A DNA stretch of 64,000 bases from a virus, in the IMG/VR virus record IMGVR_UViG_3300042868_003730, positions 1-64,000 of that record. One strand, written 5' to 3'. Position 1 is the stretch's first letter. Every line of letters begins with the position of its first letter. This document shows, in pieces, positions 34,865 to 62,267 of the stretch. Made by a program: the position numbers and the translations under genes. The notes below the pieces were generated by a model. That model saw only the letters and a list, made by a program, of their open reading frames with translations, had not been told where the DNA came from and made no database searches.

Positions 34865-36106
34865 ATGCTGGATTTTAGAACTTATATCACCGAGGCAACT
34901 AATGCCCACATGACTCACATTGCCGACCTACCTTTTATCGAAGGTGTGGAAGGTACGCGAAAGGCTATCGCCTATTTGCATGATCTGAGGGACTTCCTAA
35001 ATGGTAGTCCCTCTTCTCACATGGCATCAAAGAATAAGATGTCAGTTAAGTTCGACGGAGCACCTGCTGTTTTCCTAGGTATCGACCCAACTGATGGAAA
35101 ATTCTTCGTCGCAAAGAAGGGTATCTTCAATAAGAACCCAATCGTCTACAAGACTCAGGCTGAAGTCGATGCTGATCTTCAGGGCGACCTACAAGAAAAG
35201 TTCTCGATCCTATTGAAGGAACTGCCTAAGCTGGGCATCAAGTCCGGAATCTTCCAGGGCGATTTGATGTTCACGAAGTCAGATCTCAAGAAAGAAACAA
35301 TTGATGGTGAGCAATATGTTTGCTTCCACCCAAATACGATTGTTTATGCAGTACCAGTATCTTCTCCTCTTGCTGCTAAGATTCAAGCAGCCAAGATCGG
35401 TATTGCTTTCCATACTGAATACACCGGAACAGAATTCGCTAACCTATCAGCGCATTTCGGAAATAAGATTGTTCCGAAGTTCAAAGAGAGCAAAGATATC
35501 TGGGCAGTTGATGCTGCCTTTGAAGATGCTTCCTCAGTAGCTACTCTTTCTCCGGCTGAAGAAGCGAATGTAGATACTCTTCTTAGTGGAATTGATAAAG
35601 TATTCAAGAGCATCGATGGTGTAATGCTCAATGAGATCCATAAAGACAAAGAACTGCTCGATCTGGTTTTGATCTACATCAACTCCAAAGTAAAACAGAA
35701 CGTCAGATCAGAAATGGCATCTGATAAAGCACTTGGCTTCGCTAAGTTTATTGATGATCGTTATCAGAAAGAGATCGAGAAAAGAGCTAGCGCAGCGGGT
35801 AAGGCTACTCAAGAACAAAAGCGATTAAGAGTCCTTGAGTATTTCAAGAAACATGAGAACAAGGAGATCGCAAAGATCTTCTTAGTTGCTGATATGATTG
35901 ATGAGTTAAAGGGTATTCTTATTGCCAAGATGAACCAGATCGGTGGTCTCAAGCACTTCGTCAAGACCAACAGTGGTTTCAAGGTAACCTCTCCTGAGGG
36001 ATTTGTTGCTATCAATAGTGACAATGAGGCAGTAAAACTAATTGACAGATTTGAGTTTAGTCAGAACAACTTCTCTCCAGAGATCATCAAAGGCTGGACT
36101 AAATAA
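34865..36106 (+). CDS. Nucleotidyltransferase/ligase-like protein with capsid-targeting-like leader (413 aa)
   Basis: The N-terminus MLDFRTYITEA resembles the T4 capsid-targeting leader (MKTYxEFIAE-A). The body has VKFDGAPAVFLG, a KxDG-like ligase motif I, GIFQGDLMF (motif III-like) and IDGVMLNEIHKDK (motif IV-like), so it may be a covalent nucleotidyltransferase; it corresponds to a phage family often left as a domain of unknown function (DUF6267). The leader suggests it is packaged in the head. Function and cleavage are inferred. Confidence 0.65.
   Translation: MLDFRTYITEATNAHMTHIADLPFIEGVEGTRKAIAYLHDLRDFLNGSPSSHMASKNKMSVKFDGAPAVFLGIDPTDGKFFVAKKGIFNKNPIVYKTQAEVDADLQGDLQEKFSILLKELPKLGIKSGIFQGDLMFTKSDLKKETIDGEQYVCFHPNTIVYAVPVSSPLAAKIQAAKIGIAFHTEYTGTEFANLSAHFGNKIVPKFKESKDIWAVDAAFEDASSVATLSPAEEANVDTLLSGIDKVFKSIDGVMLNEIHKDKELLDLVLIYINSKVKQNVRSEMASDKALGFAKFIDDRYQKEIEKRASAAGKATQEQKRLRVLEYFKKHENKEIAKIFLVADMIDELKGILIAKMNQIGGLKHFVKTNSGFKVTSPEGFVAINSDNEAVKLIDRFEFSQNNFSPEIIKGWTK
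36099..36106 (+). promoter_or_regulatory. CTAAATAA element overlapping a stop codon
   Basis: CTAAATAA contains the stop codon of the preceding gene and lies 24 bp upstream of ATG 36131. Candidate late element. Confidence 0.4.
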
Positions 36107-36130
36107 TATATTCGTCGATTGTCAAACAAA

Positions 36131-37756
36131 ATGAAAAATTACAAATCACTCATTCAAGAAGTTGCTGGGTCAACCATCGTTATGGGCTTCGGAAGACTGA
36201 ATCCTATTACCAATGGTCATGCGCTTTTGTTAGATAAACTTCTTAAGATTGCTTCTGCCAACAGAGCGAAGCACGTGATGTACATCACAAAGACTCAAGA
36301 TAAGAAGAAAAACCCACTACCAATTGAGCGGAAATTATTCTGGTCGAAGAAAGCATTTCCGGAAATCAATTTCGTTGGTTGTGATGACCAAATCCGAACA
36401 GTTATTGAAGCAGCGAAAGAACAGGATGGCAAGTACAAGAACCTAATTCTTGTAGCTGGTTCTGATCGCGTTCCGTCATATGAATCTTTATTGAACAAAT
36501 ACAATGGAACTGAATATAATTTCGATTCCATCAAGGTAGTCTCCGCAGGTGAGCGCGACCCAGACGCAGATGATGCTACTGGTATGAGTGCTTCGAAGAT
36601 GAGAGCAGCTGCGACGAATAATGATTTTGTGTTGTTTAAGAAGGGCGTTCCTGATTCAATTAAGGAACCAGATGCTCGTAAAATGATGCAGGAATTGCGC
36701 ACCCATATGGGCATCAAGTCCGTAGCTGAGATGGCGATTCAAGTTACACCTTCAAGAAATGCATATTACCTCGGTGAGACTTTCCTTATTGGTCAGGTAG
36801 TAAGAGAAGGCAATGAGTATTTCGAGATCCTTGATCGTGGAAGTAATTACGTAACCGTCTCTGATATCAATGGACATATGAAACGTAAGTTCATTCAATC
36901 ACTGGTCGTCGAAGATATCCAGATGCCATACGCTTCCGCAGAGGATGAAGATACGGGATTTTCCTTTAAGGGATTCCATCCTTCTAAGTCATTCCTTAAT
37001 AATCATGATGCAGTGACATCATTCCAGGCTACAATTGGTCGCTATGAAGAAGGAAAGATTGGCGACGCAGTTGGAATTCTTCGTGCCATGCAAAATACTG
37101 ATGAGATGATTCAACACATCGAGAAGATTGTTGATCTAGGGGAACATCCTGGCGATCATACTCTGGTAAATGCAAAGGTAATGGAACATTACGCAAAGAT
37201 CAGAGACAGTCTTATTGGTATTGGTGAGTTCGAGCACCACAGAGATTACCTACAGGCACTTCTATCTTTAGTTCAACTGGCAGAAATAGAAGCACAACCA
37301 ATGGCGGAAAATATGGAAACACCAATCGTTAAACCAAGCGACAAACTAAAAGTAGCCAAGATTATCGCTGATGCTCTTGGTGTTGACTCATCTGGTAGCA
37401 ATGCCGAGACACTTGTTAATAGTGCACTTCGTGCTATGAGGAAGAAAGTTCTCAAACAAGATTCAGTTGCGATCATTGGAAATATGCTTGATCTTGCTGA
37501 CGAAGTAGGTATCAAATACGATAAGAATTTAGTTCCAACTGGTCTAAAAGAAAGTGCTGATCCAGTAAATATGGATACTGAAACAGAAATGCTTGGATTC
37601 GAACAGCTGCGTCGTCGTATTCGCAAACACGCAACCCTCGGCGCACCAGAACAAGAAGAACTTCCTGAGAAACCAGCTGGCGTCGGTTCTAGTCTTGGCT
37701 CATCTTCCGAAACTCATCGTAAACAAAAAGTACGCAAGTTGATGAGTAATGATTAA
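36131..37756 (+). CDS. NMNAT-like nucleotidyltransferase fused to a long C-terminal domain (541 aa)
   Basis: N-terminal MKNYKSLIQEVAGS has the leader pattern (L/I)xE. Then GFGRLNPITNGHALLLDKLL (the T/HxGH-type nucleotide site), LVAGSDRVPSYESLL and GMSASKMRAAA (ISSTxIR-like) define a cytidylyltransferase/NMNAT fold to about residue 195. The remaining 340 residues are mostly charged with no domain I know. ATG 36131 is preferred over an upstream TTG. Possibly involved in NAD metabolism and packaged in the virion. Confidence 0.78.
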   Translation: MKNYKSLIQEVAGSTIVMGFGRLNPITNGHALLLDKLLKIASANRAKHVMYITKTQDKKKNPLPIERKLFWSKKAFPEINFVGCDDQIRTVIEAAKEQDGKYKNLILVAGSDRVPSYESLLNKYNGTEYNFDSIKVVSAGERDPDADDATGMSASKMRAAATNNDFVLFKKGVPDSIKEPDARKMMQELRTHMGIKSVAEMAIQVTPSRNAYYLGETFLIGQVVREGNEYFEILDRGSNYVTVSDINGHMKRKFIQSLVVEDIQMPYASAEDEDTGFSFKGFHPSKSFLNNHDAVTSFQATIGRYEEGKIGDAVGILRAMQNTDEMIQHIEKIVDLGEHPGDHTLVNAKVMEHYAKIRDSLIGIGEFEHHRDYLQALLSLVQLAEIEAQPMAENMETPIVKPSDKLKVAKIIADALGVDSSGSNAETLVNSALRAMRKKVLKQDSVAIIGNMLDLADEVGIKYDKNLVPTGLKESADPVNMDTETEMLGFEQLRRRIRKHATLGAPEQEELPEKPAGVGSSLGSSSETHRKQKVRKLMSND

Positions 37757-39090
37757 TGGCACAGTTTAATAAAAACACTCAGGAATTTCTCAACCAAGAG
37801 AAAACACTATTTGAAGTTCCAATGATTGCCAACAAGAATGGCGACATTGTTACCACTTCAAATCGGTTTCCAGTCGATGCGGTAATAACAGGCACACCCG
37901 TTGTATCGTTTGGTGGAGTAAATCTAGATGCTTTTGGTAGATTAAGGGTAAGCAATCCACATACACTATTTGATGGCGCACAACGTTATAGAGATGATCC
38001 ATTTAAATGGAATCAAGTAGACACTGGCGCAGCCACAAGTGTATTTCTGCCTAACGAAAGTTCAGTGTTAATGTCGGTCTCAGGCAACGGTGACGAAAGC
38101 CTGAGACAAACTAAATCAGTGTTTGCCTATCAGCCTGGCAAAAGTTTACTGACCATGGTTACCTTTGCTATGACAACACCCACTGCAGGTCTGCGTCAGC
38201 GTGTTGGATTGTTTGGAGCACAGAATGGTGTATACTTTGAAGTAGATGGCACGACTGTGAATCTTGTGATTAGAAAATACACATCAGGATCCGTAGACGA
38301 CACAACAGAAAAGTTTGCTCAGGCAAATTGGAATGGTGATAAACTTAATGGCACTGGCCCAAGTGGAATTACTTTAAATGTCGCAACAGCACAAATTTTT
38401 TGGTGTGATATTGAATGGCTAGGAGTTGGATCAGTTCGTTGTGGGTTTGTAATTGATGGACAGTTCATACTCTGTCATACATTTCATCATGCCAATAGAG
38501 TTGGGTTCAGTAAAGTTTATATGACTACTGCTTCATTGCCAGTTAGATATGAATTAACTAGTACTGGCCCTGCAGGTTCTATGAGAGCAATATGTTCTAC
38601 CGTGATGTCTGAGGGTGGATATATGAATCGTAGTATTACTCGAAGTATTGGAACTAGTTTAACGGGTAAAGATCTAAGTAATACTGTGTATAGACCTCTG
38701 GTATGTATTAGACTCAATTCTGCCAATATTGAATCTGTGGTAGTTCCTTCTAAGTTTGATATATTTGGTTTGCAGTTGGCTGCGTTTTCATATCGCATTA
38801 TAGTAAATCCCACATTAACTGGCGCTAGTTGGACTAGTTCTGGAGCAGACAGTTCAGTAGAGTATGATATTTCTGCCACAGCATTAACAGGTGGAACAGT
38901 TATTGACCAAGGAATTTTTGTAGGATCTAATAAGGGTGGTTCAGCTTCAATCACTTCTAATGATGTAGATTTTAGTCAACAAATTGGTCGTACCATAGCA
39001 GGGGTTAGTGATATTTGGTGTCTAGCTGCTATAGCGACTACAAATAATGATGATGCTGTTGGTGTAGTGACTTGGCAAGAGCATATATAA
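37756..39090 (+). CDS. Virion-associated structural protein (444 aa)
   Basis: AYxxD-type features NLDAFGRLRVSNPHTLFDGAQRYRDDPFKWNQ mark a family of tail or appendage proteins found in T4-like environmental phages. The rest is beta-rich with jelly-roll-like repeats and few Cys. It precedes the Dps-like and fibre genes. Exact position in the virion unknown. Confidence 0.72.
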   Translation: MAQFNKNTQEFLNQEKTLFEVPMIANKNGDIVTTSNRFPVDAVITGTPVVSFGGVNLDAFGRLRVSNPHTLFDGAQRYRDDPFKWNQVDTGAATSVFLPNESSVLMSVSGNGDESLRQTKSVFAYQPGKSLLTMVTFAMTTPTAGLRQRVGLFGAQNGVYFEVDGTTVNLVIRKYTSGSVDDTTEKFAQANWNGDKLNGTGPSGITLNVATAQIFWCDIEWLGVGSVRCGFVIDGQFILCHTFHHANRVGFSKVYMTTASLPVRYELTSTGPAGSMRAICSTVMSEGGYMNRSITRSIGTSLTGKDLSNTVYRPLVCIRLNSANIESVVVPSKFDIFGLQLAAFSYRIIVNPTLTGASWTSSGADSSVEYDISATALTGGTVIDQGIFVGSNKGGSASITSNDVDFSQQIGRTIAGVSDIWCLAAIATTNNDDAVGVVTWQEHI

Positions 39091-39093
39091 ATA
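39086..39093 (+). promoter_or_regulatory. TATAAATA late promoter element
   Basis: Perfect T4-type late box overlapping the stop codon of the preceding gene, 15 bp before ATG 39109. Confidence 0.6.
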
Positions 39094-39108
39094 ACAATAA
39101 GGATTATA

Positions 39109-39546
39109 ATGAATGATCTAACCATCTCAATGAAGAAGTTGCTTGCCAATGTATTCTTCTATTACTACAAAGCACATGCATTTCATTGGAACGTAGAGAG
39201 TGTTCTGTTCTCGCAGATCCATGACTTCTTTGGGGATATCTATGCTGATGCTCATACTTCAGTAGATGATATTGCTGAACGAATTCGTATTATGGATGAA
39301 TATGCGCCAACCAATCTGGCTGAATTGTATCAACTGAAGACCATCCAGGAAAGTAATCTTAGTGGTAGCGATGTCGTGAATATGCTTTCAGAACTGGAAA
39401 AGGATAATGAGAGTATCCAGGAAAACTTAACAGAAGTGTTCGGAATGGCAAATTCACTAAATATGCAGGGGCTAGCAAATTACCTCGCTGGTAGATTAGA
39501 GATCCACTCCAAATTCGGTTGGATGATTAAGAGTCATTTGAAATGA
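39109..39546 (+). CDS. Dps/ferritin-like protein (145 aa)
   Basis: Four-helix protein with AHAFHWNVES, QIHDFFGDIY and SVDDIAERIR. His26, His38, Asp53 and Glu57 have the same spacing as the Dps ferroxidase residues H51, H63, D78 and E82. Dps oxidises iron and protects DNA. AAGGAT precedes the ATG and a TATAAATA box lies upstream, so late expression is likely; it might be packaged or protect phage DNA. Confidence 0.8.
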   Translation: MNDLTISMKKLLANVFFYYYKAHAFHWNVESVLFSQIHDFFGDIYADAHTSVDDIAERIRIMDEYAPTNLAELYQLKTIQESNLSGSDVVNMLSELEKDNESIQENLTEVFGMANSLNMQGLANYLAGRLEIHSKFGWMIKSHLK

Positions 39547-39893
39547 GCAATTTAAATAGTTATTTCGTTTCTGCTGAACTTGATCTGTATATTGATCAGG
39601 GAGACGCGTATGATAATGTCGTGACTCTCAATGATGAGTCAGGAAGTCCAATTGATCTAACTGGATTGACCGTAACTGCTTCTCTGAAGAGATATTATAA
39701 CTCAACAAGGGATTACGCTCTAACTGCTGCATCCATTGGAAGTGGAACCAATGGTCAGATTTTATTATCTATGACTGCAGAGACTACTGCATTACTAGTT
39801 GACCCAAGATACGTTTATACTGTCTATGTAACAACCAACAATAAGAAAGTCAAAGTTTTATATGGGCAGGTATTAACATCGCCGATGGCGTAA
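39543..39893 (+). CDS. Beta-sandwich virion protein, BppU-like (116 aa)
   Basis: LDLYIDQGDAYDNVVTLNDESGSPIDLTGLTVTASLKR is the style of short baseplate/upper-fibre beta domains. ATGA overlap with the Dps-like gene. Likely structural. Confidence 0.68.
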   Translation: MSNLNSYFVSAELDLYIDQGDAYDNVVTLNDESGSPIDLTGLTVTASLKRYYNSTRDYALTAASIGSGTNGQILLSMTAETTALLVDPRYVYTVYVTTNNKKVKVLYGQVLTSPMA

Positions 39894-39903
39894 CAATCAC
39901 TAT

Positions 39904-39934
39904 GTTTTCTTATCTAAATAAGAAATAAGAAAAC
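39904..39934. promoter_or_regulatory. 10-bp dyad with a CTAAATAA element in the loop
   Basis: Bases 39904-39913 pair perfectly with 39925-39934. The loop (39914-39924) contains CTAAATAA (39914-39921). It lies 30 bp upstream of ATG 39964. It may be a protein-binding late promoter, or an RNA hairpin. Confidence 0.5.
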
Positions 39935-39963
39935 GATCTCTTACTAATTTTATAGGAAATAAT

Positions 39964-40536
39964 ATGAACATAGCAAAATCACAAGACGTGCTTGGAGCAT
40001 CAGTTACTCGTGGAAGCAGCCAGTCTGAACAAATGGAAGTTAGCGGTCGTTATCGCGCGGAATGCCTTGACGCACAGGGTAATGTCAAGTGGGTCGAGGA
40101 TTTCGACAACTTGGTTACCACCCAAGGCAGAAACCACTTGTTAGACCATGGTCTAGCTGGTCCAGCTACTGCTGTTATTGTTCGCATGTCGTTCATTACT
40201 TCTGGTACTCCAGTTGTTGGTGACACATACGCGACCCACGCTGGTTTCACTGAACTTGGTTCGGGTATTATTGCTGCTCGCGGCACACCATCCTTCTCTG
40301 CCGCATCTGCTGGTGCTAAGGCAACTTCGGCAGCAGTTTCTGCTTCTATTGTTGGTACTGGTTCTGTTACTGGTGTGGCAATTAACCTAGTTGTTGGTGT
40401 TGTTGGTAACTTGGGTGTCGTTGCTGATACAGCAACCTCTGGTGGTATCCTGTACAGTGCTGGTCTGTTCGCTGTGGCCAAGTCTGTTTCGTCAGGCGAC
40501 ACTCTCAACGTAACTTACACGACTACATTGACCTAA
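39964..40536 (+). CDS. Probable virion decoration/fibre protein (190 aa)
   Basis: After a polar N-terminus, a segment VEDFDNLVTTQGRNHLLDHGLAG is typical of phage tail-associated proteins, then a Gly/Ala/Val/Ser-rich beta region. TAGGAAATA precedes ATG. Codon use is strong-expression type. Exact role unknown. Confidence 0.68.
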   Translation: MNIAKSQDVLGASVTRGSSQSEQMEVSGRYRAECLDAQGNVKWVEDFDNLVTTQGRNHLLDHGLAGPATAVIVRMSFITSGTPVVGDTYATHAGFTELGSGIIAARGTPSFSAASAGAKATSAAVSASIVGTGSVTGVAINLVVGVVGNLGVVADTATSGGILYSAGLFAVAKSVSSGDTLNVTYTTTLT

Positions 40537-40551
40537 TTTTCGTTCTTAACG

Positions 40552-40598
40552 ATACTGGTGTTATTGTATGTGTGATGTTGCGGCATTAACACCAGTAT
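40552..40598 (+). promoter_or_regulatory. 12-bp hairpin enclosing a start codon
   Basis: Bases 40552-40563 pair perfectly with 40587-40598; the 23-nt loop holds ATG 40568. No Shine-Dalgarno is visible. This should hide or present the start of the cupin gene and may be a translational switch, or a terminator for 39964. Confidence 0.6.
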
Positions 40599-40855
40599 TA
40601 AGTTTCAATTATTTGAGTTCAAGAACACAGGTGTATAAAGGCGATCCTGGTCAGGGATTACCTATACACCAACATGAGTTTGCTCACCTTACAGTATGCA
40701 TCCAAGGTAGCATAAAGGTATTGAAGCAAAAGGGGTCGAAAATTTTAACTGTAAATGATAATCCTCTATTACTTACAGCTAATGAGTGGCACGAAATAGA
40801 AATTGTAGAACCAAATACAATATTCTCAAACATTTTCGAGGCGATAAATGGCTAA
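40568..40855 (+). CDS. Small cupin-domain protein (95 aa)
   Basis: LPIHQHEFAHLTVCIQGSIKVL matches cupin motif 1 (HxH...E/G), and NEWHEIEIVEP supplies the later His. A single-domain cupin, possibly metal-binding; in fibre regions such proteins may act on or bind sugars. The start codon lies in a hairpin loop, so the start is somewhat uncertain. Confidence 0.72.
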   Translation: MCDVAALTPVLSFNYLSSRTQVYKGDPGQGLPIHQHEFAHLTVCIQGSIKVLKQKGSKILTVNDNPLLLTANEWHEIEIVEPNTIFSNIFEAING

Positions 40856-41042
40856 TTGCATTTTATTAGATCCACAGGGTAATTATGTGAATGCAATAGT
40901 TGCTGAACTAAACGATCCAGTCGACGAAGGTTATACTCTAGTAGAAGTGCCTGCAGGTTCTATCTGGGATGGCACTAAAGTCATAACCATAGAACAGTAC
41001 CAACAACAACGATCAAATACTAAAACAGTAGAGGCATTTTAA
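40848..41042 (+). CDS. Small hypothetical protein before the fibre (64 aa)
   Basis: ATGG overlap with the cupin gene. MANCILLDPQGNYVNAIVAE... acidic. One-base overlap with the fibre gene suggests a fibre assembly factor or chaperone, unproven. Confidence 0.6.
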   Translation: MANCILLDPQGNYVNAIVAELNDPVDEGYTLVEVPAGSIWDGTKVITIEQYQQQRSNTKTVEAF

Positions 41043-43537: not shown

Positions 43538-43540
43538 ACT

Positions 43541-43548: not shown

Positions 43549-43552
43549 CACT

Positions 43553-44236
43553 ATGAACGAAAACTTTTTACGTAAAGTACAGGCAGCTACTATTGTTGCC
43601 AAAACTCTTGGGTATGAACCACAGGAGGGGGAAAGTCCAGCTGATATTATTAAGACAGCACTGGCTCTCCAACCAGATTTGACTGAAGAGCAGAAAAAGA
43701 CTCTTCGCGATATGTTAAAGTTGTCAGAATCTATGGGTATTGATGTGGAAGATAAAGACTACTCCGATGACGAACTAGACAAAATGGCTGATGGCGTGAA
43801 AGACTGGGATCATATTATTGATGCCTATGACGATGAAGAACTGGCTATTGTTGATGATGAAACAGGCGAGGAAGTTGATAACCTGAAAGAATCATTTGAG
43901 ATCAATGAGGTATTGTCCAGAGCTGAGCGTATCAGAGCAAAGGCAAGATTCGCAAGAACTGCAACCAAAAGAGAAATCAAAACCAAACTCGCACTTCGTC
44001 GTCAATCTAATTCAGCTACATTCAGCAAAAGAGCCAGACATTTGGCCATGAATATGATGAAAGTTAAACTGGCCAAGAAACCTCTTGCCAATATGACTGT
44101 GCTTGATAAAGAAAGAGTTGAGAGGATTCTTTCTAAGAGGAAAGTTCTTATCAATCGCCTGGCAATGAAACTAATGCCTCGTGTCAAGAAGATCGAGAAA
44201 GATCGTTTACATCACAGAACATTCACACAAAAATGA
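43553..44236 (+). CDS. Basic virion-associated protein (227 aa)
   Basis: Acidic first half, then a strongly basic helical half (RAERIRAKARFARTATKREIKTKLALRRQ and on). The junction LKESFEINE-VLSRAER has the (I/L)xE cleavage pattern seen elsewhere in this window, so a prohead protease may separate the halves. Similar basic proteins are common in T4-like environmental phages. It probably binds DNA inside the head (inference). Confidence 0.7.
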   Translation: MNENFLRKVQAATIVAKTLGYEPQEGESPADIIKTALALQPDLTEEQKKTLRDMLKLSESMGIDVEDKDYSDDELDKMADGVKDWDHIIDAYDDEELAIVDDETGEEVDNLKESFEINEVLSRAERIRAKARFARTATKREIKTKLALRRQSNSATFSKRARHLAMNMMKVKLAKKPLANMTVLDKERVERILSKRKVLINRLAMKLMPRVKKIEKDRLHHRTFTQK

Positions 44237-44892
44237 TTAGACTAAAAGAATTCATTTCCGAAGCAGAGCGCGGCACAAAGAATGCACGTGAGATTGCTGA
44301 TACACTGAAGAAAGCTGGGTACAAGAAACTCGGTGAAGGTGTGGATGCTACTGTCTGGACTAAGGATGATGGTTCAGTGCTGAAGATTATTATGCCTAGT
44401 ACACCTGACTCACAGGCTGCGCTAACATTTATGAATTTTTGGAAGTTCTGTCAGAACCATAAACAACTTCGGTGCTTGCCAAGATTCAAAGAAATCCAGG
44501 GTGAGAATCTAGCGAAGTTTACTCTTAGAAAAAAAGAGTATCTCCAGATCTCAATGGAGAAATTACAACCTCTGGCCAAAGGTAGTGCTGAAGAAATCCT
44601 AGTCTGGCACCTTAGTGATTATGCCACACAGAATACTGACTGGAACACCGTATTCACAGATCTTCATAAAATAGAGAGTTATGAAGATCTCAAACCAAAA
44701 GAACAAAAGAGATATTTGTCTTTCTTGGAAGATAAGAGTAAAGTCTTAGAGTATAAGATGTTGTATACTGTTATGAAACTTCTTTACGTAACAGGATCGC
44801 TAAATAATATGAATTGGGACCTGCATACTGAAAACGCAATGCAGCGAGCAGATGGTACTGTAGTTATCGTCGATCCTTGGCTAACCTTCTAA
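44233..44892 (+). CDS. Protein-kinase-fold protein with capsid-targeting-like leader (219 aa)
   Basis: MIRLKEFISEAERG fits the T4 leader (FISE-A). The kinase fold shows a Gly loop LGEGVDATVW, Lys51 in SVLKIIMP, a catalytic loop NWDLHTENAM (D196, H198, N201) and a metal Asp214 in VDPW. A packaged, injected kinase would parallel T4 Alt, which carries the same type of leader. Target unknown. Confidence 0.72.
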   Translation: MIRLKEFISEAERGTKNAREIADTLKKAGYKKLGEGVDATVWTKDDGSVLKIIMPSTPDSQAALTFMNFWKFCQNHKQLRCLPRFKEIQGENLAKFTLRKKEYLQISMEKLQPLAKGSAEEILVWHLSDYATQNTDWNTVFTDLHKIESYEDLKPKEQKRYLSFLEDKSKVLEYKMLYTVMKLLYVTGSLNNMNWDLHTENAMQRADGTVVIVDPWLTF

Positions 44893-44902: not shown

Positions 44903-47761
44903 ATGAAAACATTCAAAGAACTGTTCGAAAAGAAACTAACTCCAGCTGAGTTAAAGAAGCGCGAAGAAATTGCTAAGGCAATGGAGCGTGAGAATCCAGG
45001 TATGGATATGGGCAAGAAGATGGCCATTGCTACTGCAGCTGCTAAGCGCGTAGCAGAAGAAACTGAAGTTGAAGAAGCATATATGTCCAGCGACCGCAGC
45101 AAGCAAATGTTTAAGCGTAATGAGTTGGACCACGAACTTAGGCATGAAGTAGAACCAAAGCGTTCTGAGCCTGCAGAACCACACGCTGTTCACATCAATG
45201 GTAAGAAGTGGAAAACATTTCCAACCAAGTCACACGCTACTAACGTCGCCAAGAAGATTGCTGGTGCTACTGTTGTAAAAGAATCAATTGATGAGGGCAA
45301 GATTCCGGAAATGAGATATTCGGAAGTGATGAAGAAGATTAAATCTGGAACACACGAAGCAACTCACGATGTCAAGCCAGGCAAGCATGTCGAACTTCGT
45401 CACATTGACTCAGGTAAAAAGACAACAGTTTATGTAAAAGAATCTTCGGAATTGGATGAAGCAACAGATCACCACGCTGACGCGATGGAACACAAGAAAC
45501 AATCTGACGCAGCAATGGATAAGAATGATATGGAAGCATATCATCACCATATGTCGGCTCATCATGAATCAATGGGTCAATGGCACGAGTCAAAGGGTCG
45601 CAGTTCTAATGCTGACAAAGAATACGAAAAAGCAGAAAAGCATCACGAACTAAGCCTGAAGAAATCAAATCAGAAAAACGAAGGAACCGAAATGTTATCA
45701 TTCAAGTATTTCCAGCAAGCACTGGTTGAAGCCAAGAAGAAATGCAAAGAATCTTCAGGTGAGATGGAAATTGCTCATGGTGAATTGCTAAACAAAGATG
45801 AAGATAATGGTAAAGAACTCGACGAAGAAGATGATTATGATAAAATGTTGAAAGACTTGATGAAGAAAGATGGCAAAAGACTTATGCAGAAATACTCTAC
45901 CGATGTTAAGAAGTCTAAAGACCTTGACAGCGGCAAAGAGCTCAAAAAACATATCAAGCAAAATCCAGATGTTGTAAAAACTTATTCAACAGCTGTCAAA
46001 AAAGACAAAAAGATGTATGAAGAAGTAGAGATTGATGAGCAAGCACCTGTTGCTCCAGTTCCTGGAATGAAAGATGGAAAGTACGCTATCATGGTTCATC
46101 CAGAATCAAAGCAGCGCGTGACGATCGAAAGAAAGAACAAGAAGAACTATCCAGCATCTGAAGGCTGGAAAGAAGTTGCTCCTGGTATCAAAGAATCAGT
46201 TGAACTTGATGAAGCAGAATTATTTTATCAGCATGCTAAGAAACTTATGGATCAAGGAAGAGATTCGCATAAGCCAAGTTCTGATGCGCCTTATGGTCGT
46301 ACTTTTCATGGTAATGCATACCACAATCCACCAGGAAAATCAAGATTACATGTGTTGGATAATGGTAAAAAAGTAAAGACAGTCCATGTTCCAGACGAAC
46401 ATATTGAAAAACTGGATACCAAGGGAAAACTTGAATGGCCAAATCATATGGACCCTACAATTGAGAAAAAGCATTTTGATGCATATGCGAAAACCAATTC
46501 CAAGCACATTAGTGAACCAGTTAAAGAATCAGTTGAAGAACTCGATGAAGCAGCAATTACGCACGTTGTCGCAAAGGACAAACTTGCTGCGCACAAAGAG
46601 TTTATGGACAAAGAAGGGTTTAAGGTAACAACAAAACCTCTACCAAAGAGCCACCCAAAACACGCCACCCATATGGGTATTGTTTCTAAGAATAGTCAGG
46701 AGTCTTCATATCACGAAGATGGAAATGCTCATTCTGTCAGCGAATCAGTTGAATTCGATGAATCCTACGACGAATTGAATATGCGTCACAAGTTTGTGTT
46801 TAATAAAACAGCTGCCGGAAAAGCACGTGAAGTGGCTCGTAATCGTGAAGAACTAAAGAGCCAAATGAAGAGACAAAGAGAAATGGGCGGCATTACTGGT
46901 CCTAAAGGTAAATTGCCAGAAGAAGTTGAACTAGACGAGATCTCTACTGCTACAATGAGTCATCAAGGTAAGACTACTCTGAAACATGTCAAGAATCCAG
47001 GTGTTCAACTGCGTATGGCTGCTCATGACATTAAGCCAGGTATCAAGGGATATCGCGATCGCGTTGCCCTTATGCACGCAGCTGATGCTGAAAAGAAGCT
47101 AAAGGAAGAAGTTGAACTGGATGAAGTTTCTCCATTCGACTGGAAAGCCTACGCAAAAGAAAAGGGAACTGCTTCTTCTAACAAGACAAAGACGTTTCAC
47201 GACGTAAAGAAAACTAGCACTGGTACTGTATACACCAAGCAAGTTAATCCAGACGGTACGAGCAAGGGTTCGGGCGATGATGCTGCTAAAACAGCTGAGA
47301 AAGCCGATGCTCCTAAGCGTGGTCGCGGTCGTCCTGCTGGTGTTGGTGCAAAGACTGGTTCTTACAAGCCACGTGATCCAGCGGCTAAGGCTGCGTCTGC
47401 TGCCAAAGCAGCTGCTAGCAAGGCAGCTAACCGCGCAATGCGCAAAGAAGAATTCGATAATGAGTTTATGGGAAGTTTGATTGAAGGTTTCGAGGATGAA
47501 GACTTTGACGAATTCCTATATTGCGAAGAATTTGACGAGTTGGATGAGGCAACGCAAGAAGCCCTGATCAATTTCATTAATGAAAAGAGCTGTGGTTCAT
47601 ACAAAATGAAAGAGTCTCTTACTGGTAAGCAACATAAACTAGATAAGAACAAGAATGGTAAGATCGACAGCCACGATTTCAAACTTCTTCGTAAAGAAGA
47701 AACTGAACAAGTCCAAGAAAGCGTAAATACATATGCTGCTTTCTTAACCAAGAAACAATAA
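44903..47761 (+). CDS. Large repeat internal-head protein candidate (952 aa)
   Basis: N-terminus MKTFKELFEKK, and a second leader-like start MLSFKYFQQALVEA near 264. About ten copies of a motif like ESVELDEA recur (around 128, 183, 305, 376, 433, 546, 617, 675, 738 and near the C-terminus); each gives LxE or IxE, the T4 Gp21 protease pattern. Between them are small charged domains, a His-rich helical piece (about 188-255) and an AT-hook-like KRGRGRPAG followed by an Ala/Lys-rich tract. Near the C-terminus DKNKNGKIDSHDF is an EF-hand loop. Probably a multi-site cleaved, DNA-binding core protein (inference). Confidence 0.72.
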   Translation: MKTFKELFEKKLTPAELKKREEIAKAMERENPGMDMGKKMAIATAAAKRVAEETEVEEAYMSSDRSKQMFKRNELDHELRHEVEPKRSEPAEPHAVHINGKKWKTFPTKSHATNVAKKIAGATVVKESIDEGKIPEMRYSEVMKKIKSGTHEATHDVKPGKHVELRHIDSGKKTTVYVKESSELDEATDHHADAMEHKKQSDAAMDKNDMEAYHHHMSAHHESMGQWHESKGRSSNADKEYEKAEKHHELSLKKSNQKNEGTEMLSFKYFQQALVEAKKKCKESSGEMEIAHGELLNKDEDNGKELDEEDDYDKMLKDLMKKDGKRLMQKYSTDVKKSKDLDSGKELKKHIKQNPDVVKTYSTAVKKDKKMYEEVEIDEQAPVAPVPGMKDGKYAIMVHPESKQRVTIERKNKKNYPASEGWKEVAPGIKESVELDEAELFYQHAKKLMDQGRDSHKPSSDAPYGRTFHGNAYHNPPGKSRLHVLDNGKKVKTVHVPDEHIEKLDTKGKLEWPNHMDPTIEKKHFDAYAKTNSKHISEPVKESVEELDEAAITHVVAKDKLAAHKEFMDKEGFKVTTKPLPKSHPKHATHMGIVSKNSQESSYHEDGNAHSVSESVEFDESYDELNMRHKFVFNKTAAGKAREVARNREELKSQMKRQREMGGITGPKGKLPEEVELDEISTATMSHQGKTTLKHVKNPGVQLRMAAHDIKPGIKGYRDRVALMHAADAEKKLKEEVELDEVSPFDWKAYAKEKGTASSNKTKTFHDVKKTSTGTVYTKQVNPDGTSKGSGDDAAKTAEKADAPKRGRGRPAGVGAKTGSYKPRDPAAKAASAAKAAASKAANRAMRKEEFDNEFMGSLIEGFEDEDFDEFLYCEEFDELDEATQEALINFINEKSCGSYKMKESLTGKQHKLDKNKNGKIDSHDFKLLRKEETEQVQESVNTYAAFLTKKQ

Positions 47762-52778: not shown

Positions 52779-52779
52779 T

Positions 52780-54564: not shown

Positions 54565-54565
54565 A

Positions 54566-55543: not shown

Positions 55544-55554
55544 GGATAATAACA

Positions 55555-56110: not shown

Positions 56111-56116
56111 GTTTAT

Positions 56117-56145
56117 TTTACATCTATACATATATCAGGCATAAT
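56117..56145 (+). promoter_or_regulatory. Promoter for the DNA-modification operon
   Basis: TTTACA (56117-56122), 17-nt spacer, CATAAT (56140-56145). Leader with GAGGTG before ATG 56172. It is the only clear promoter before the block 56172-61175. Confidence 0.65.
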
Positions 56146-56171
56146 TACTGAATCGTAACCTGAGGTGAAAA

Positions 56172-57524
56172 ATGGTAAGAAAAATTGTAGCAAATGAAGT
56201 TTATGACTCCAAGCATCTGCTGGGGACTTTCCTTGATGAATCTAATTACGATATTCTAATTGAGGAAGATTGTGATGTTTATGCACCTGCTGGATGCGAT
56301 CTAGCAACAACAGTTGATTGTAAGCCGCAATCTGATTGCGCAGAATGCCCTAAAGGTATTTCCGAAGATAGGGTTGCTTTCAAATTCCGAAAGAACTACT
56401 TCAGCAAGGAACAGCAACAAGCAGCCTATGAAGGTCTGCGTGCTGCAGCAACTCCGACTAATAATCGTGGTACAGCAGCGGGTACTGTTCGCGTCGGTAA
56501 GGCAGGTAATCGTGAGTGGGTCACGGAATACCAGGAAGCAGTAATCAAATACTTTGCTAAACCTTATACCACTATTACTGGTGAAGATCCGCTCGAAGAA
56601 CTATTTGCTAGGAAAGAGCAGATGGCTGAACCTGGTACCATAAACACAGTATGGAGAACAGGTGCTCCGATTGTGTTTGAAGAGTGGGTCGAAGCAACCA
56701 GAAAACTACCAGCAGAAAAACAAAAGTTAGCAGCGAAAAATATCCTTGAGGATAACATCTCAGCTACTACCTACGCCAATGAAGTGCTTAGTGGAATTGC
56801 TGGTGCTTTCGGAAGAACTCCCCGAGTTCCATTCGGTCGTCTTGCTGCATACAATGAGCGCAATCCAGATATGTTTGAAAGAGGTGTGCCATTCCTGCAG
56901 ACACTTGATCGGGCATTTTCTGAACTTATGCCAGAACGCCACGGAGCGCAAAAGAACTTTGTTGATTCATTGGATGAACATTTCCGAATCGCAGATACGG
57001 TGTTCACCACACTGACTATCAATAAGACGTTCCGTACTGCTGCTCACCTTGACGCAGGTGATTATGGCCCAGGATTCTCTAATCTTCTTGTTCTTTCAAA
57101 CGATGGTGATTTCACTGGTGGTTACTTGATTCTTCCTGAGTTTAGGATTGCAGTTAATGTTCGACCTGGCGATCTGTTGCTGATTGCAAACCATACTGCG
57201 ATTCACGGAAACACTCCGATCGTTCTTGGCTCAGAAGCCAGTGAGCGTATCTCCATTGTTGCTTACGCTCGTGAAGATCTTAAGTCACTTGGTACTTGGG
57301 ACTATGAACAGACTCGAAAGAGATACGTTGACAGTTGCAGGGATAATAAAGACCACCCGCACTGGTGGGATCGTTTCACTGGGGTATGGGCAGGAATGTG
57401 GCAATCCAAAGAATGGTATGATTATTTGGTAGCTGCATTGGGTGAAGATGAGGCTCGTGCTAATGACCCAGCTATTTTTGAGATCCACAATAATGGATCA
57501 GTTGGTCTTGAGTCCTTCTTCTGA
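56172..57524 (+). CDS. TET/JBP-like 2-oxoglutarate/Fe(II) DNA dioxygenase
   Basis: 450 residues. The C-terminal double-stranded beta-helix has FRTAAHLDAGDYGPGFS (H292, D294), GGYLILPEF, RPGDLLLIANHTAIHGNTP (H345) and ERISIVAYARE (R359 for 2-oxoglutarate), the set of the TET/JBP family. N-terminal 70 residues contain a Cys cluster (34, 42, 50, 56, 59). JBPs hydroxylate thymine and TETs 5-methylcytosine; no C5 methylase is seen here, so thymine is the likelier substrate. First gene of the hypermodification operon. Confidence 0.85.
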   Translation: MVRKIVANEVYDSKHLLGTFLDESNYDILIEEDCDVYAPAGCDLATTVDCKPQSDCAECPKGISEDRVAFKFRKNYFSKEQQQAAYEGLRAAATPTNNRGTAAGTVRVGKAGNREWVTEYQEAVIKYFAKPYTTITGEDPLEELFARKEQMAEPGTINTVWRTGAPIVFEEWVEATRKLPAEKQKLAAKNILEDNISATTYANEVLSGIAGAFGRTPRVPFGRLAAYNERNPDMFERGVPFLQTLDRAFSELMPERHGAQKNFVDSLDEHFRIADTVFTTLTINKTFRTAAHLDAGDYGPGFSNLLVLSNDGDFTGGYLILPEFRIAVNVRPGDLLLIANHTAIHGNTPIVLGSEASERISIVAYAREDLKSLGTWDYEQTRKRYVDSCRDNKDHPHWWDRFTGVWAGMWQSKEWYDYLVAALGEDEARANDPAIFEIHNNGSVGLESFF

Positions 57525-58204
57525 TGTGTGCAGTTATTGGCGCAACAATTAAGAATCCAAGTAGCGCAGATTTTCAAACACTGAAAAGAGTATTCCACGA
57601 ATCCCGCATTCGTGGAATGCACGCTACTGGATTATCATACGTCAAGAACAATAAAATCCACACAAACAAACTTCCAGTATCTGCTGATAAGTTTCCCTTT
57701 GATTGGGATGATTATGTCAATGAAGATGGCAATCTTTATTTGGTGGGTCACTGTCGTTACTCAACTTCAGACCTGCAATATAATCAACCCATTAACAATG
57801 ATACTATATCAGTAGTTCATAATGGTGTGGTGACACAAGAGTCACCAGAGAGCTGGAAAGATAATTATGGTTATGACTGCGTAACAAAGAATGATACTGA
57901 GTTGATCCTTAAATCATTAGAGGCAGATGAATCTCCTCTTGAGCACTGGTCAGAATCATCTCTGGCTGTTTGTGAACTATGGAATGATAAGAAGATTCGG
58001 TTCTACCGAAATGGAAAGCGACCAATTTATTTTACTTCAGTCGATCGCGGAACTATAATTACTTCTACGCGAGATATTGCTATTCGCTCTGGTTTAACTA
58101 ATACCACTGAACTTCCGTATAATACATACGCCACAATTAAGAGTGATGGACTAATTATGGAACAAGTAAGTGTAAACAATAAAGACTTACAGCATACACT
58201 ATGA
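57524..58204 (+). CDS. Class II glutamine amidotransferase
   Basis: 226 residues with an N-terminal Cys nucleophile (MCAVIG), GHCRYST (G75-H76, R78) and VHNGVV (H99-N100-G101), all Ntn-amidotransferase motifs. It releases ammonia from glutamine, presumably for the amidoligase that overlaps it by ATGA. TGATG overlap with the dioxygenase. Confidence 0.88.
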   Translation: MCAVIGATIKNPSSADFQTLKRVFHESRIRGMHATGLSYVKNNKIHTNKLPVSADKFPFDWDDYVNEDGNLYLVGHCRYSTSDLQYNQPINNDTISVVHNGVVTQESPESWKDNYGYDCVTKNDTELILKSLEADESPLEHWSESSLAVCELWNDKKIRFYRNGKRPIYFTSVDRGTIITSTRDIAIRSGLTNTTELPYNTYATIKSDGLIMEQVSVNNKDLQHTL

Positions 58205-59079
58205 CAAAATACAATCCCAGTAACTTTACGTATGGTATGGAAATAGAGTGGGGTGATGTTCCTCGCTCTTTTGCGATTCCGGATAACCTTGGGTCGTGGG
58301 AATATTCTGAACGGGATATTATAAACCTAAGAGAACCATATCAATATGTCTGCGCTGATCCTCTTGGTGAGACACCACCAGTAGGAGGTGAGATCAACAC
58401 AAAGCCAACTAAAACTTGGCAAGAGCAGGTTGCTCGATACTTTGAGTTGAAAGAATTGTTTGAGTCAAATGGATCTTCTCCTACAGTTGGTGTAACTGCT
58501 CATACGCACATTCACTGTCGTGTTCCTGGGTTGAAGGATGATATCAATGCTCTAAAGTCTTTGACGAAATATATCAAAGAAAATCAGGCAGCAGCTATTG
58601 ATCGAATCTATGGGTTCTACGAACATAATCAGATGAAGGGTGCTAAGGGTGCCAAGATGTATTTGAAGTTCGATGGTGGTCGCCCAATGCCAGATTATAT
58701 GAGCGATAACATTATCAGCAAGGCAACTGACTTCGATTCATTCATCAAGATGCACGCTGCTGGTAAAGATGGTGTATCAATGGGTAGGCCATTTAGATTT
58801 GCCATCAATATGTATGCATTGAAGCATATTGACACAGTAGAGTTTAGGTTGTTCCGTGGTACATTTGACAGAAACCAACTTGAGTCTTGTTTCCGTTTTG
58901 TTCAAGACTTTCTTGATGCTGCGTTGAACGATGGTCCAACTGTTGATGAGTTGTTCTCAAACAATAATTACAATTTCCCTCCAATGATGTGGGATCTAAA
59001 TCAATTCATTGGTTGGGAGAAAACTAAACACCCAGAAGATCGTGGTAAGAAAGTAAGGACATTCGTTGAAGTTATCTAA
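58201..59079 (+). CDS. Amidoligase-family (COOH-NH2 ligase) protein
   Basis: 292 residues. YGMEIEWGD (11-19), VGGEINTKP (61-69), HTHIH (101-105) and TVEFRLFRGTFD are the Glu, Gly-Glu and Arg/Phe motifs of the glutamine synthetase-like amidoligase fold. These ligate amines to carboxylates with ATP. Next to amidotransferase, GNAT and DNA transferase it may build an amide on the modified base. Confidence 0.82.
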   Translation: MTKYNPSNFTYGMEIEWGDVPRSFAIPDNLGSWEYSERDIINLREPYQYVCADPLGETPPVGGEINTKPTKTWQEQVARYFELKELFESNGSSPTVGVTAHTHIHCRVPGLKDDINALKSLTKYIKENQAAAIDRIYGFYEHNQMKGAKGAKMYLKFDGGRPMPDYMSDNIISKATDFDSFIKMHAAGKDGVSMGRPFRFAINMYALKHIDTVEFRLFRGTFDRNQLESCFRFVQDFLDAALNDGPTVDELFSNNNYNFPPMMWDLNQFIGWEKTKHPEDRGKKVRTFVEVI

Positions 59080-59623
59080 ATGCACACGAGATAAATTTAT
59101 CTCAAGTATTAGCACAGCGAAAGAAGATAATTTTGCTCGCACATTTGTCGCTAAGGCAGATATGCAAGAACAGTGGGATTATTGTCTCGGGTTGTTTGAT
59201 AATACAGGAGATCTTATGGCAGCAATCATTACCACAATCTCCAAAAGGAAACCATTCGTAGCCAACCTTCAATTGTTGCATACATTCGCTAAGCATAGAG
59301 GGCAGGGTGCAGCTAGGTTGCTTTGTGAGCAATCTTTACTGAATGTAAAGAATCACGGAGCTGAGTATTTCCGAGTTTCTTCTGAGATCAATGCTGTTGC
59401 ATTCTATGAGAAGATAGGTTTCAAGTTTTGGGGAAAACAAAAGAGTGGTTGCCAACTTTCGATATTCCGAATTGATGGCGGCACATTCGCTGAGGGTGAT
59501 TATGATTATTATGATTCAATGATCCATAACGCAATCCATAAAAAAGGTAAGGGTGGGTGCGTTGAACTATTTGATATTGCAAAGAATAAAGACAATGGTC
59601 TTCAAGAGTTATTCTCAGCATGA
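59066..59623 (+). CDS. GNAT-family acetyltransferase
   Basis: 185 residues. Acetyl-CoA loop HRGQGAARLLCEQ and NAVAFYEKIGFKFWG are GNAT signatures; a C-terminal extension of about 45 residues is acidic/aromatic then basic. Overlaps the amidoligase by 14 bp. Possibly acetylates the side group of the modified base (inference). Confidence 0.85.
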   Translation: MKLSKCTRDKFISSISTAKEDNFARTFVAKADMQEQWDYCLGLFDNTGDLMAAIITTISKRKPFVANLQLLHTFAKHRGQGAARLLCEQSLLNVKNHGAEYFRVSSEINAVAFYEKIGFKFWGKQKSGCQLSIFRIDGGTFAEGDYDYYDSMIHNAIHKKGKGGCVELFDIAKNKDNGLQELFSA

Positions 59624-60633
59624 ATCATAAAGAACTTCCAAGAGAATCATTTATTCGTTGGTATGCCTGGTCATTAAAATATAATGATTGTGACCCAGCT
59701 GTGTGGGCAACAAATTATCTAAACAAAAGATTCGAGCATAACTCTGAACAGAAACTGTGGCTCGCGTGGTTATACGGAAACACCTATCATCTGCCTACTG
59801 CTTGGGTTCTAATGAATGAGTTTCCTGATTTTGAATTAGCAACAGTTGACCGAACTACTCAATGGAATACTGCTAACTATAAAAGATTACGTTATCAGAC
59901 AGATACAAAATGGAACAAAGGACATCTACCAGTGATGTTCAAATCCTATCAAGAATTTATAGGTGAAGGAAGTCAACATGACCGTATTGAATCATACTAT
60001 GCTGGAAATGCGAAAGAAAATTTTGATTCTTTGTGGAATGTACTTAAAGGAAACCTTCATAAGTTTGGTCGTTATTCTACTTGGTTTTATATGCAGCATC
60101 TCAAACATACTGCTAGTGTTAATGTCGAGCCTACTTCTCTCATGTTGGATGATTATGATGGTTCCCGTTCTCATCGTAATGGGTTACTTATGGCCATCGG
60201 CAGGAATAACGATTATGATAGGAAACTTAGTACAGCGGAGTATCGAGACCTTGAGTCTATTAGCATTGGAATTATCGATGAGATGAGGGATAGGTTTCCG
60301 GAGTTAAAAGATCAGATTGATTTCTTTACAATGGAAACCTGTCTGTGCTCATTTAAGAAAATCTTCAGAGAACACCATGGTCGTTATCTTGGTTACTACT
60401 TAGATCGGCAGGCTGAAGAGATTATGCAATGCGAGAAAGATGGCTGGCATGGTATTGACTGGGAAGTTCTTTGGCAAGCAAGGAATGAAACAATTGATTC
60501 GCGATTGAACAATAAGAGAGGTATTATCAAAGAAAAGTTTACTTCTTTTGTTAGAGAAGGTAAGATTGATAATCTCGAGTGGATGTTCGATGATGAAGAA
60601 TGTAGTAATGTTAGTTTGGAGAAATTCTTATGA
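59620..60633 (+). CDS. Amino acid:DNA transferase-like (ADDT/aGPT-PPlase) protein
   Basis: 337 residues. RWYAWSLKYNDCDPAVW, NSEQKLWLAWLYGNTYHLPTAWV, NYKRLRYQTDTKWNKGHLPV, DDYDGSRSHRNGLLMAIG and HGRYLGYYLDRQAEEI match the phage family predicted to transfer amino acids or amines onto phosphorylated 5-hydroxymethyl pyrimidines. ATGA overlaps with GNAT and the kinase. The family assignment is from pattern memory and is fairly sure; the reaction in this phage is inferred. Confidence 0.78.
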   Translation: MNHKELPRESFIRWYAWSLKYNDCDPAVWATNYLNKRFEHNSEQKLWLAWLYGNTYHLPTAWVLMNEFPDFELATVDRTTQWNTANYKRLRYQTDTKWNKGHLPVMFKSYQEFIGEGSQHDRIESYYAGNAKENFDSLWNVLKGNLHKFGRYSTWFYMQHLKHTASVNVEPTSLMLDDYDGSRSHRNGLLMAIGRNNDYDRKLSTAEYRDLESISIGIIDEMRDRFPELKDQIDFFTMETCLCSFKKIFREHHGRYLGYYLDRQAEEIMQCEKDGWHGIDWEVLWQARNETIDSRLNNKRGIIKEKFTSFVREGKIDNLEWMFDDEECSNVSLEKFL

Positions 60634-61175
60634 GAAAAATCGTAGCAGTTGGTGGTCAACCAGGAACAGGTAAAACTACTCTATTCCGTAAATTTATGGA
60701 AGATAAAACCTGGGAGAAGGTTGAGCCAAAGAAAATGCTTCCTGCTCTTTACTGCAAGGAACTTGATCTTTATGTTCTGGGTAAGTATGAAGAGGGTGAG
60801 ACGTTTGCTGGTACTGACCGATTAAGTATGGCTGTGCAGCCAATCGCTCAGTGTTTTGTTACTGAGACTAAATCGAATGTCTTGTTTGAAGGTGATCGAA
60901 TCTTTAATCAGTCCTTTCTGGAATTCGCTATGGCTCTTCCGGAAGTTGATCTTCAGGTTATCTATCTTAAGGTTTCGCCAGAAACCCTGACTCAACGATA
61001 CGCCGATAGAGGATCAGATCAGTCAGAGACTTTCCTAAAGGGAAGAGCCACTAAATATAATAACATACTTTCAAATTTTGAATTGATGCCCTATATTAAT
61101 GAGTTCGTGAACACTACATTAGAAGATCAATTGAAAGTTATCAAATTTATGGAAAATCATTTAATAGGTAAATAA
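60630..61175 (+). CDS. P-loop kinase, 5-hydroxymethyluracil-DNA kinase-like
   Basis: 181 residues. Walker A GQPGTGKTT (9-17) and LFEGDRIFN (84-92) resemble the P-loop domain of phage 5-hmdU DNA kinases that activate the base for substitution. The protein lacks a fused helical domain, so the transferase-like partner upstream may supply it. ATGA overlap with that gene. A simple nucleotide kinase is the alternative. Confidence 0.7.
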   Translation: MRKIVAVGGQPGTGKTTLFRKFMEDKTWEKVEPKKMLPALYCKELDLYVLGKYEEGETFAGTDRLSMAVQPIAQCFVTETKSNVLFEGDRIFNQSFLEFAMALPEVDLQVIYLKVSPETLTQRYADRGSDQSETFLKGRATKYNNILSNFELMPYINEFVNTTLEDQLKVIKFMENHLIGK

Positions 61176-62267
61176 ATGCTTTCGCTAAAACAATATATAT
61201 CCGAGACAGAAAATAAAATGGCAGCATCTATCAAAAAGAAATTACTGACTCCGTCAAAGTTTGGCTTAAACACAATGAAGCCCATGACTTCGAGTCAAAT
61301 AGTGACTGTTGCCAGAAAGAGATTAATGTCGTTGGATATATCAGATGATGCTAAAAAATTATGTAATTATATAATTGATCAATCCATTGCTGGTAAAGAT
61401 AGTTTCCCTGCAAAATTTAGTGGTGTTTCTAATGAAGATCTTGGTGTTATAACTTCTGACTTCGGTGAGGTTGCTGGCGCCATTTACATGCTAAACTCCA
61501 AAATGGGTTACACTCATGCTAGATTTCCAATTGGAGAGAATGAGCGTCTCGTAGATTACTATCTTGTTAGGGATGGTATTGATGAGAAGATTTCTGCTAA
61601 AGCAGGTCAGGGTGGTGCACCTGCTCTTACTGCTGTAGAGAAAGCATTAGGAGATATTGACACCAAAATACTAAACGATACACAAAAGAAAGCATTAAGT
61701 GTCTTGGACTTTATCAATAAGGGTACTGTTTACGGTGGTGTTCTTGAAGCAGCTAAATTTCTTAAGATGCCTGGGTATAAGGCATTGATATCGATCTTGT
61801 CCAGAAAAGATTTGAAGACTGGTTATAATGCACCAAACATCCCTGACCAACAAGATCTTATCAGAGCTGTTGACGCATGCGGAACTTTTGACTCTTGCAT
61901 GAGTGAGTTCAAGCCTCTGTTCACTGCTGCCAATTTTGTATTAGGTGGTGAGGGTAAGATGAGATCTGTTTTTGATGGAAGCGCAGGATCTAGATATAAG
62001 AAATGGGGCATCCTACACTTTCCAGTTACTAGTGAAGTTATGGGGTGGTTAAATGATCCCGACAATGAAGCAAGAAATTTGTTGACCATGGCTGCTAGAA
62101 CTCTGACAGTTAGTCAGGTTTATTTTGACTATAAATCGAACAATTTTTCATATACAACGAAAACCTTTTCTGACGCTGACTTCAAATTCCATTCTCCGTC
62201 AAGTACACCAAACCCAGTGGGAAACAGAATTGGCATGAAAATGATCAAATCGCCGAAGAAAGAATAA
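61176..62267 (+). CDS. PD-(D/E)XK-like protein with capsid-targeting-like leader (363 aa)
   Basis: MLSLKQYISE-TENKM fits the T4 leader/cleavage pattern. Glu98 in DFGEVAGA, Asp127 in LVDYYLV and Lys142 in ISAK could be a variant PD-(D/E)XK nuclease core. The C-terminal half is unknown. If correct, it is a nuclease packaged in the head and injected. It lies between the modification operon and early genes. Confidence 0.6.
   Translation: MLSLKQYISETENKMAASIKKKLLTPSKFGLNTMKPMTSSQIVTVARKRLMSLDISDDAKKLCNYIIDQSIAGKDSFPAKFSGVSNEDLGVITSDFGEVAGAIYMLNSKMGYTHARFPIGENERLVDYYLVRDGIDEKISAKAGQGGAPALTAVEKALGDIDTKILNDTQKKALSVLDFINKGTVYGGVLEAAKFLKMPGYKALISILSRKDLKTGYNAPNIPDQQDLIRAVDACGTFDSCMSEFKPLFTAANFVLGGEGKMRSVFDGSAGSRYKKWGILHFPVTSEVMGWLNDPDNEARNLLTMAARTLTVSQVYFDYKSNNFSYTTKTFSDADFKFHSPSSTPNPVGNRIGMKMIKSPKKE

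Follow-up and report, generated by a model that had tools for sequence, protein, structure and literature searches.

The window analysed here comprises 64,000 nucleotides of viral DNA, corresponding to bases 1-64000 of the 147,921-base IMG/VR record IMGVR_UViG_3300042868_003730; window and record coordinates are identical. Between positions 34865 and 62267 it encodes a series of proteins whose N-termini resemble the capsid-targeting sequence (CTS) of the T4 internal proteins (IPs). T4 IPII and IPIII start MKTYQEFIAE/A (a slash marks a cut site, known or predicted), and a homologue of the T4 prohead protease gp21 is encoded elsewhere in the genome. In T4, gp21 cleaves behind L/I-X-E, and residues 1-10 of IPIII suffice for packaging (PMC9026906). 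Five leaders had been proposed in the first-pass annotation, and the ATG codons at 34865, 36131, 44233, 44903 and 61176 were all located with the N-termini as described. Those at 34865, 36131, 44233 and 61176 fit the T4 CTS, and the less clear fifth, at 44903, was assigned as MKTFKELFE/KK, the downstream module being preceded by [LV]xE in 10/10 contexts. Judged by its sequence, the leader qualifies these proteins as T4-type CTS cargo, and the locus very probably belongs to a T4-type head-loading system, in which CTS-led cargo and gp21-cut polyproteins would be carried in the head and ejected into the host.

Table 1. Leaders, cargoes and head genes of record IMGVR_UViG_3300042868_003730 (positions 1-64000 form the window)
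Feature	Position	Strand	Remarks
CTS-type leader MLDFRTYITE	34865..34894	+	predicted cut after E10
Cargo, DUF6267, RNA-ligase-like nucleotidyltransferase fold	34895..36106	+	PF19782 E 6.3e-93
CTS-type leader MKNYKSLIQE, atypical (Y4/L7)	36131..36160	+	kept in L006
Cargo, NMNAT/cytidylyltransferase-like	36161..37756	+	phrog_3041 E 1.1e-64; PF01467 E 0.0022, below cutoff
Acidic propeptide-like half	43553..43909	+	pI 4.1, ending FEINE
Basic module	43910..44236	+	pI 12.0, released if FEINE/V is cut
CTS-type leader MIRLKEFISE	44233..44262	+	MIRLKEFIAE in L086/L087
Cargo, protein-kinase-like	44263..44892	+	phrog_15752 (protein kinase, inhibitor of host transcription) E 4.5e-12
Polyprotein leader MKTFKELFE	44903..44929	+	[LV]xE before LTPAE..KREE
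Putative polyprotein	44930..47761	+	about 11 modules, mostly 55-130 residues, with acidic (I/L/V)xE sites between, e.g. ESVELDE/A
CTS-type leader MLSLKQYISE	61176..61205	+	absent from syntenic orthologues
Cargo, 363-residue protein of unassigned family	61206..62267	+	no family match
Portal	113852		T4-like head module, downstream of the window
Prohead protease, gp21 homologue	116468-117100		Pfam S77, PF03420 E 1.2e-42
Scaffold	117173		T4_CASP E 7.7e-60
gp23	118046		Gp23 model E 3.8e-139

The pattern M..[FYL]..[FYIL][ILV].E was found at 4 of 190 open reading frame (ORF) starts, or at 5 if the ATG at 36131 is used; an upstream TTG lies at 36119 in that ORF, but the close relative L006 retains both the ATG and the leader. 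Shuffling of the N-terminal residues gave a mean of 0.14 matches and a maximum of 2 (2,000 shuffles), and none of 704 internal methionines carried the pattern. A 10-residue profile, trained solely on 50 distinct leaders from environmental DUF6267 homologues, ranked the ORFs at 122799 (25.0), 61176 (18.8), 34865 (16.6) and 44233 (15.1) highest among the 190, the score of 34865 not being independent because this protein is homologous to the training set. The search for additional leaders that the first-pass annotation had recommended was thereby carried out for the whole record and yielded two more outside 34865-62267, namely MKSFKSYLTE/Q at position 122799, on an Acb1-family protein, and a leader-like stretch, MMSFKSFLEINE/L, internal to the ORF at 120945. 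The latter was the best of 537 internal methionines (13.0; next 10.2). An equal profile fit of all five named leaders was rejected, as 36131 is atypical and the predicted cut of 44903 follows E9 instead of falling at position 10. When the profile was applied to T4 ORFs as a control, IPIII and IPII ranked third and fourth and IPI seventh; T4 leaders of other spacing or composition (Alt, gp24) were missed, so the profile is not exhaustive. The top T4 score belonged to gp61.1 (L126:18966-19130), which starts MKTFKEFIKE/D and stood above IPII and IPIII. By sequence comparison the leader is common to at least five unrelated cargoes.

Conservation of the leader was most extensively documented for the DUF6267 protein. 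The leader pattern was kept in 80/80 fetched IMG/VR homologues (45-94% identity), in which the leader letters vary around a constant ending of a hydrophobic residue (or T), any residue and E, and E10 was invariant in a 28-sequence alignment. The description of this cargo as ligase-like was borne out by a structural model (mean pLDDT 86; residues 1-14 below 50), which gave VIA-align Z scores of 9.2 with Naegleria RNA ligase, 8.2 with T4 Rnl2 and 8.1 with T4 Rnl1, and by a K62xDG motif I and downstream EG/K motifs, with K62, D64, G65, E378, G379 and K391 invariant in the 28 sequences. Foldseek was not significant alone (best E 0.14), though ligases stood high in its ranking, and the assignment is therefore based on fold plus motif. 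RNA repair as the role of this protein is a guess. DUF6267 was not found mentioned in the open-access literature, and PDB sequence searches with the DUF6267, NMNAT-like, kinase-like and 363-residue proteins returned nothing useful.

The NMNAT-like protein links the leader to published virion proteomes. Its proposed family was upheld at the level of the general cytidylyltransferase-like superfamily (phrog_3041); the curated NMNAT model TIGR00482 gave 15.2 bits against a cutoff of 112, and NMNAT-like or cytidylyltransferase-like is therefore the appropriate wording. The leader is present here and in some relatives, typical in other homologues of 36131, and elsewhere the domain forms the leaderless N-terminal part of a protein of 600-1,600 residues. 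Several groups have reported NMNAT-like proteins and kinases in cyanophage virions, at least two of them noting that carry-over after CsCl purification is possible. Leaders were found on the virion-detected NMNAT-like proteins of 4/4 cyanophages examined: S-SM1 (MKKFSAFLNE/A), S-SCSM1 (MKSFLQFLKE/A), S-SZBM1 (MRFRQFIIE/A) and S-CREM2 (MKNFSSFLTE/A). The S-CREM2 virion proteome detected 52 of 219 ORFs (PMC10665884). The four highest leader scores in that genome fell on gp154 (cytidylyltransferase), gp6 (SAM hydrolase), gp14 (kinase) and gp13, all virion-detected, giving Fisher p values of 0.003 (all ORFs) and 0.00035 (non-structural ORFs) in a test based on four proteins; a lower threshold added gp136 (detected) and gp175 (55 residues, not detected). 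In S-SZBM1, the DUF6267 protein carries no leader and is missing from the virion table, which does list its leader-bearing neighbour. Homologues and the published virion proteomes of relatives thus support a tie between leader and virion presence. No discussion of the leader by the S-CREM2 and S-SCSM1 authors was found in the accessible parts of their papers, and open-access literature joining capsid targeting and cyanophages yielded a T4 review only. As a separate observation, the virion-detected S-CREM2 gp12 (L093:7704-10313), annotated Cas9, has a leader-like LRFASFMAE/A at residues 17-25, and its start may be misannotated.

The kinase-like nature of the 44233 cargo was supported by its PHROG match (Table 1). 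The nuclease-like character ascribed to the 61176 cargo found no backing: no match was obtained in Pfam, PHROG, NCBIfam or PDB sequences, and the model (pLDDT 42) was unusable and too poor for a structure search. Orthologues of this protein share 67-70% identity and sit beside conserved neighbours (59620 and 60630); they begin at a position corresponding to residue 17-18, with in-frame stops upstream and no leader, which implies that the leader moves as a unit. No prohead protease was found in the short contigs carrying these leaderless orthologues; the contigs are fragments.

The strongest leader of the genome lies on the 122799 protein, which matched PF23474 with 52.1 bits (curated cutoff 27) and PDB entry 7t26 with an E-value of 8.1e-7, both HxT motifs (FHCTVMY, PHITLRY) being aligned. 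The leader persists as MKSFKTYLTE/A in a relative with 89% identity, and packaging of this Acb1 would be predicted from its sequence. In T4, gene 57B, encoding Acb1, adjoins ipI (L127:23591-24410), and the KVP40 57B product (L125:1381-1836) starts MKLSKFLE/S; leaders on Acb1 proteins may predate this phage. The IPs of T4 block type IV restriction (PMC12373910), which makes early counter-defence the likeliest role of at least Acb1.

Judged by sequence, three ORFs (44903, 120945 and 43553) resemble polyproteins or precursors. The 952-residue 44903 protein and the 120945 ORF consist of modules with acidic sites between them. The 43553 product appears to combine an acidic and a basic half, and residue 1 of the basic module aligns to residue 11 of a stand-alone protein from C48C1 (BLASTP E 4e-7) that bears the leader MLSFKQFVSE/V. 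The same module matches NMNAT polyproteins with E-values down to 5e-40, and in both formats the alignment starts at the first residue past the predicted cut. Counted by eye, a hydrophobic-x-E site precedes the DUF5824-like module in 17/17 instances and the TLxSY module in 13/13 true instances (four further regex hits in unrelated frames being excluded), against a background density of 2.3% per residue. More generally, [ILVFM]xE occurred within 6 residues of 241 of 509 homology-block starts, compared with 129 expected, although module and block instances, like the family-level counts, are not phylogenetically independent; xD and xK were not enriched, and [KRHDE]xE was also raised, because of the acidic linkers. 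Comparison of this phage with its relative L098 shows different sequence over whole segments between (I/L/V)xE-type sites, and some modules are encoded elsewhere by stand-alone genes that have CTS leaders (C48C1, Methylophilales phage Melnitz). S-SCSM1 proteins 89 and 92, annotated as virion components, have a comparable multi-site layout. That conserved modules start straight after (I/L/V/M)xE and that some occur as CTS-led genes suggests a gp21-cut, modular internal-protein system. A definition of polyproteins by motif counts was dropped as too strict. A P-loop kinase-like module (GGPGSGKS) was seen within the L018 NMNAT polyprotein and as a separate gene in Pelagibacter phage HTVC008M (L133:5742-6404).

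The protease, scaffold and gp23 of a T4-like head module were all identified in the one genome by family models (Table 1). The gp23 site reads LFE/D in this phage at the position of LTE/A in T4 and S-CREM2, in line with a shared gp21 specificity. The T4 late promoter TATAAATA was not present near leader genes or the structural genes checked, which is uninformative. PADLOC returned no match, and megablast of the region against cultured phages gave no match and hence no close cultured phage. Elsewhere in the window, ARAGORN predicted a tmRNA at 7458-7825 (tag ANDSVYDVALAA) overlapping a tRNA-Gln, the phage being tRNA-rich. The ORF at 34235-34822, upstream of the DUF6267 gene, appears ClpP-like, and that at 39109-39546 Dps/ferritin-like (FHWNV...D..AERI), both by eye with no search made.

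In the proposed scheme, the leader MxxFxxY(I/L)xE would attach cargo to the gp22 scaffold core during prohead assembly, gp21 would cut after the E, leader and scaffold pieces would exit the head, and the freed cargo would remain with the DNA and be ejected into the host. Two interchangeable cargo formats are envisaged: single CTS-led proteins (RNA-ligase-like DUF6267, NMNAT-like, kinase-like, the 363-residue protein and the Acb1-family 122799) and polyproteins or precursors (44903, the 120945 ORF and 43553) with small, often basic modules between gp21-type sites. Cutting, packaging, injection and a function in the new host are inferred for this phage. Like many of its relatives, it tags several enzymes, one of them related to a known immunity blocker, which are probably carried in the capsid and pass into the host together with the DNA. 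The broader proposition, that in T4-like phages outside the T-even group gp21 matures combinatorial strings of small modules and enzymes in the head at (I/L)xE and that these are delivered beside CTS-led enzymes including the anti-CBASS Acb1, was judged an even call. Were it so, immune evasion and RNA repair would start before any phage gene expression. Several observations weigh against the scheme. Beyond the small S-CREM2 set and the related module instances noted above, 36131 scores only 2.7 on the profile, owing to Y4 and L7; cyanophage DUF6267 proteins have no leader, and some virion proteins have none either; T4 Acb1 (gp57B) starts MMEFKDFSTG, without an (I/L)xE site; and the S-CREM2 and S-SCSM1 authors thought carry-over possible.

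Alternative explanations were weighed against the same evidence. The leader could recruit assembly factors or DNA-condensing peptides to the scaffold core and be cut, with no role in the next host. Many polyprotein modules are indeed small and basic, like core-derived internal peptides, 43553 divides into halves with pI 4.1 and 12.0, and the T4 core proteins gp22 and gp67/68 are cut into fragments; however, the enzyme-like cargoes (RNA ligase fold, NMNAT-like, kinase-like, Acb1) have no evident assembly role, and the T4 CTS cargoes Alt and the IPs are ejected according to the literature, which leaves this explanation unlikely. Another reading takes the multi-site proteins not for polyproteins cut by gp21 but for structural components of scaffold or tail type in which acidic linkers recur; it is decidedly unlikely: the ESVELDEA repeats could serve as linkers, but the same modules form separate leader-bearing genes in C48C1 and Melnitz, with homology from the residue past the predicted cut, and the comparable S-SCSM1 proteins carry a virion annotation.

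Convergence on an amphipathic N-terminal helix that serves in docking to a membrane or complex, E10 not being a cut site, could account for so short a pattern, and the leader is helical, at low confidence, in the DUF6267 model. It was considered very improbable, given that E10 is invariant where all else varies, that the same (I/L)xE recurs at module junctions and in gp23, and that the S-CREM2 leader carriers are virion-detected. Chance resemblance among AT-rich, lysine/isoleucine-rich N-termini would find some room in the shortness of the motif and the low profile score of the weakest member, 36131; set against the 4-5 matches observed for 0.14 expected, the 0/704 internal methionines and the 80/80 conserving homologues, its probability is close to negligible, and for the group formed by 34865, 44233, 61176 and 122799 it has already been refuted. 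Head loading followed by ejection is retained as the preferred explanation. A conserved cut-and-remove leader on virion-found NMNAT-like proteins and kinases would offer a mechanism, together with a sequence-based rule for telling which phage proteins are injected. It would carry the concept of T-even internal proteins over to aquatic phages that are widespread, raise the possibility that Acb1 is injected to block immunity, and suggest a cargo format that is modular and cut by a protease.

Mining of IP genes by their leader is already known in T-even phages; what appears new is that the leader extends to other T4-like phages, that its cargo is enzymatic and includes Acb1, that it can be tied to published virion proteomes, and that there is a putative polyprotein format. 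As in T4 IPI-III, non-homologous cargo lies behind similar leaders of about 10 residues, cut in T4 and predicted to be cut here after (L/I)xE, in the presence of gp21, gp22 and gp23, but the cargo here is larger and enzyme-like, the leaders usually have F/L at position 4 and Y/F at position 7, and the relatives are marine and freshwater T4-like phages. T4 Alt is a head-carried enzyme behind a short cut propeptide and is ejected according to the literature; it differs in its off-profile leader MELITELFDE (score -14) and in being an ADP-ribosyltransferase. T4 gp22, gp67 and gp68 are also precursors cut at several (L/I)xE sites, with small peptides staying in the head, whereas the putative polyproteins here comprise many distinct modules, which vary from phage to phage at the predicted cut sites and can also be found as single genes led by a CTS. 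The inner-head proteins of the giant phages phiKZ, 201phi2-1 and SPN3US have propeptides that a gp21-related protease removes at a short motif ending in E, and their ejection is established or inferred, but they use an S/A-x-E motif and mostly much longer propeptides. The 122799 protein shares PF23474 and the 7t26 match, with both HxT motifs, with the anti-CBASS T4 Acb1 (gp57B); it carries the genome's strongest CTS, whereas gp57B has no (I/L)xE at that position. Polyvalent proteins (PMC5512222) are similarly multi-domain and used by phages and plasmids in host conflict; they are fusions of 2 to 15 domains, whereas the small modules described here are split by prohead-protease-type sites.

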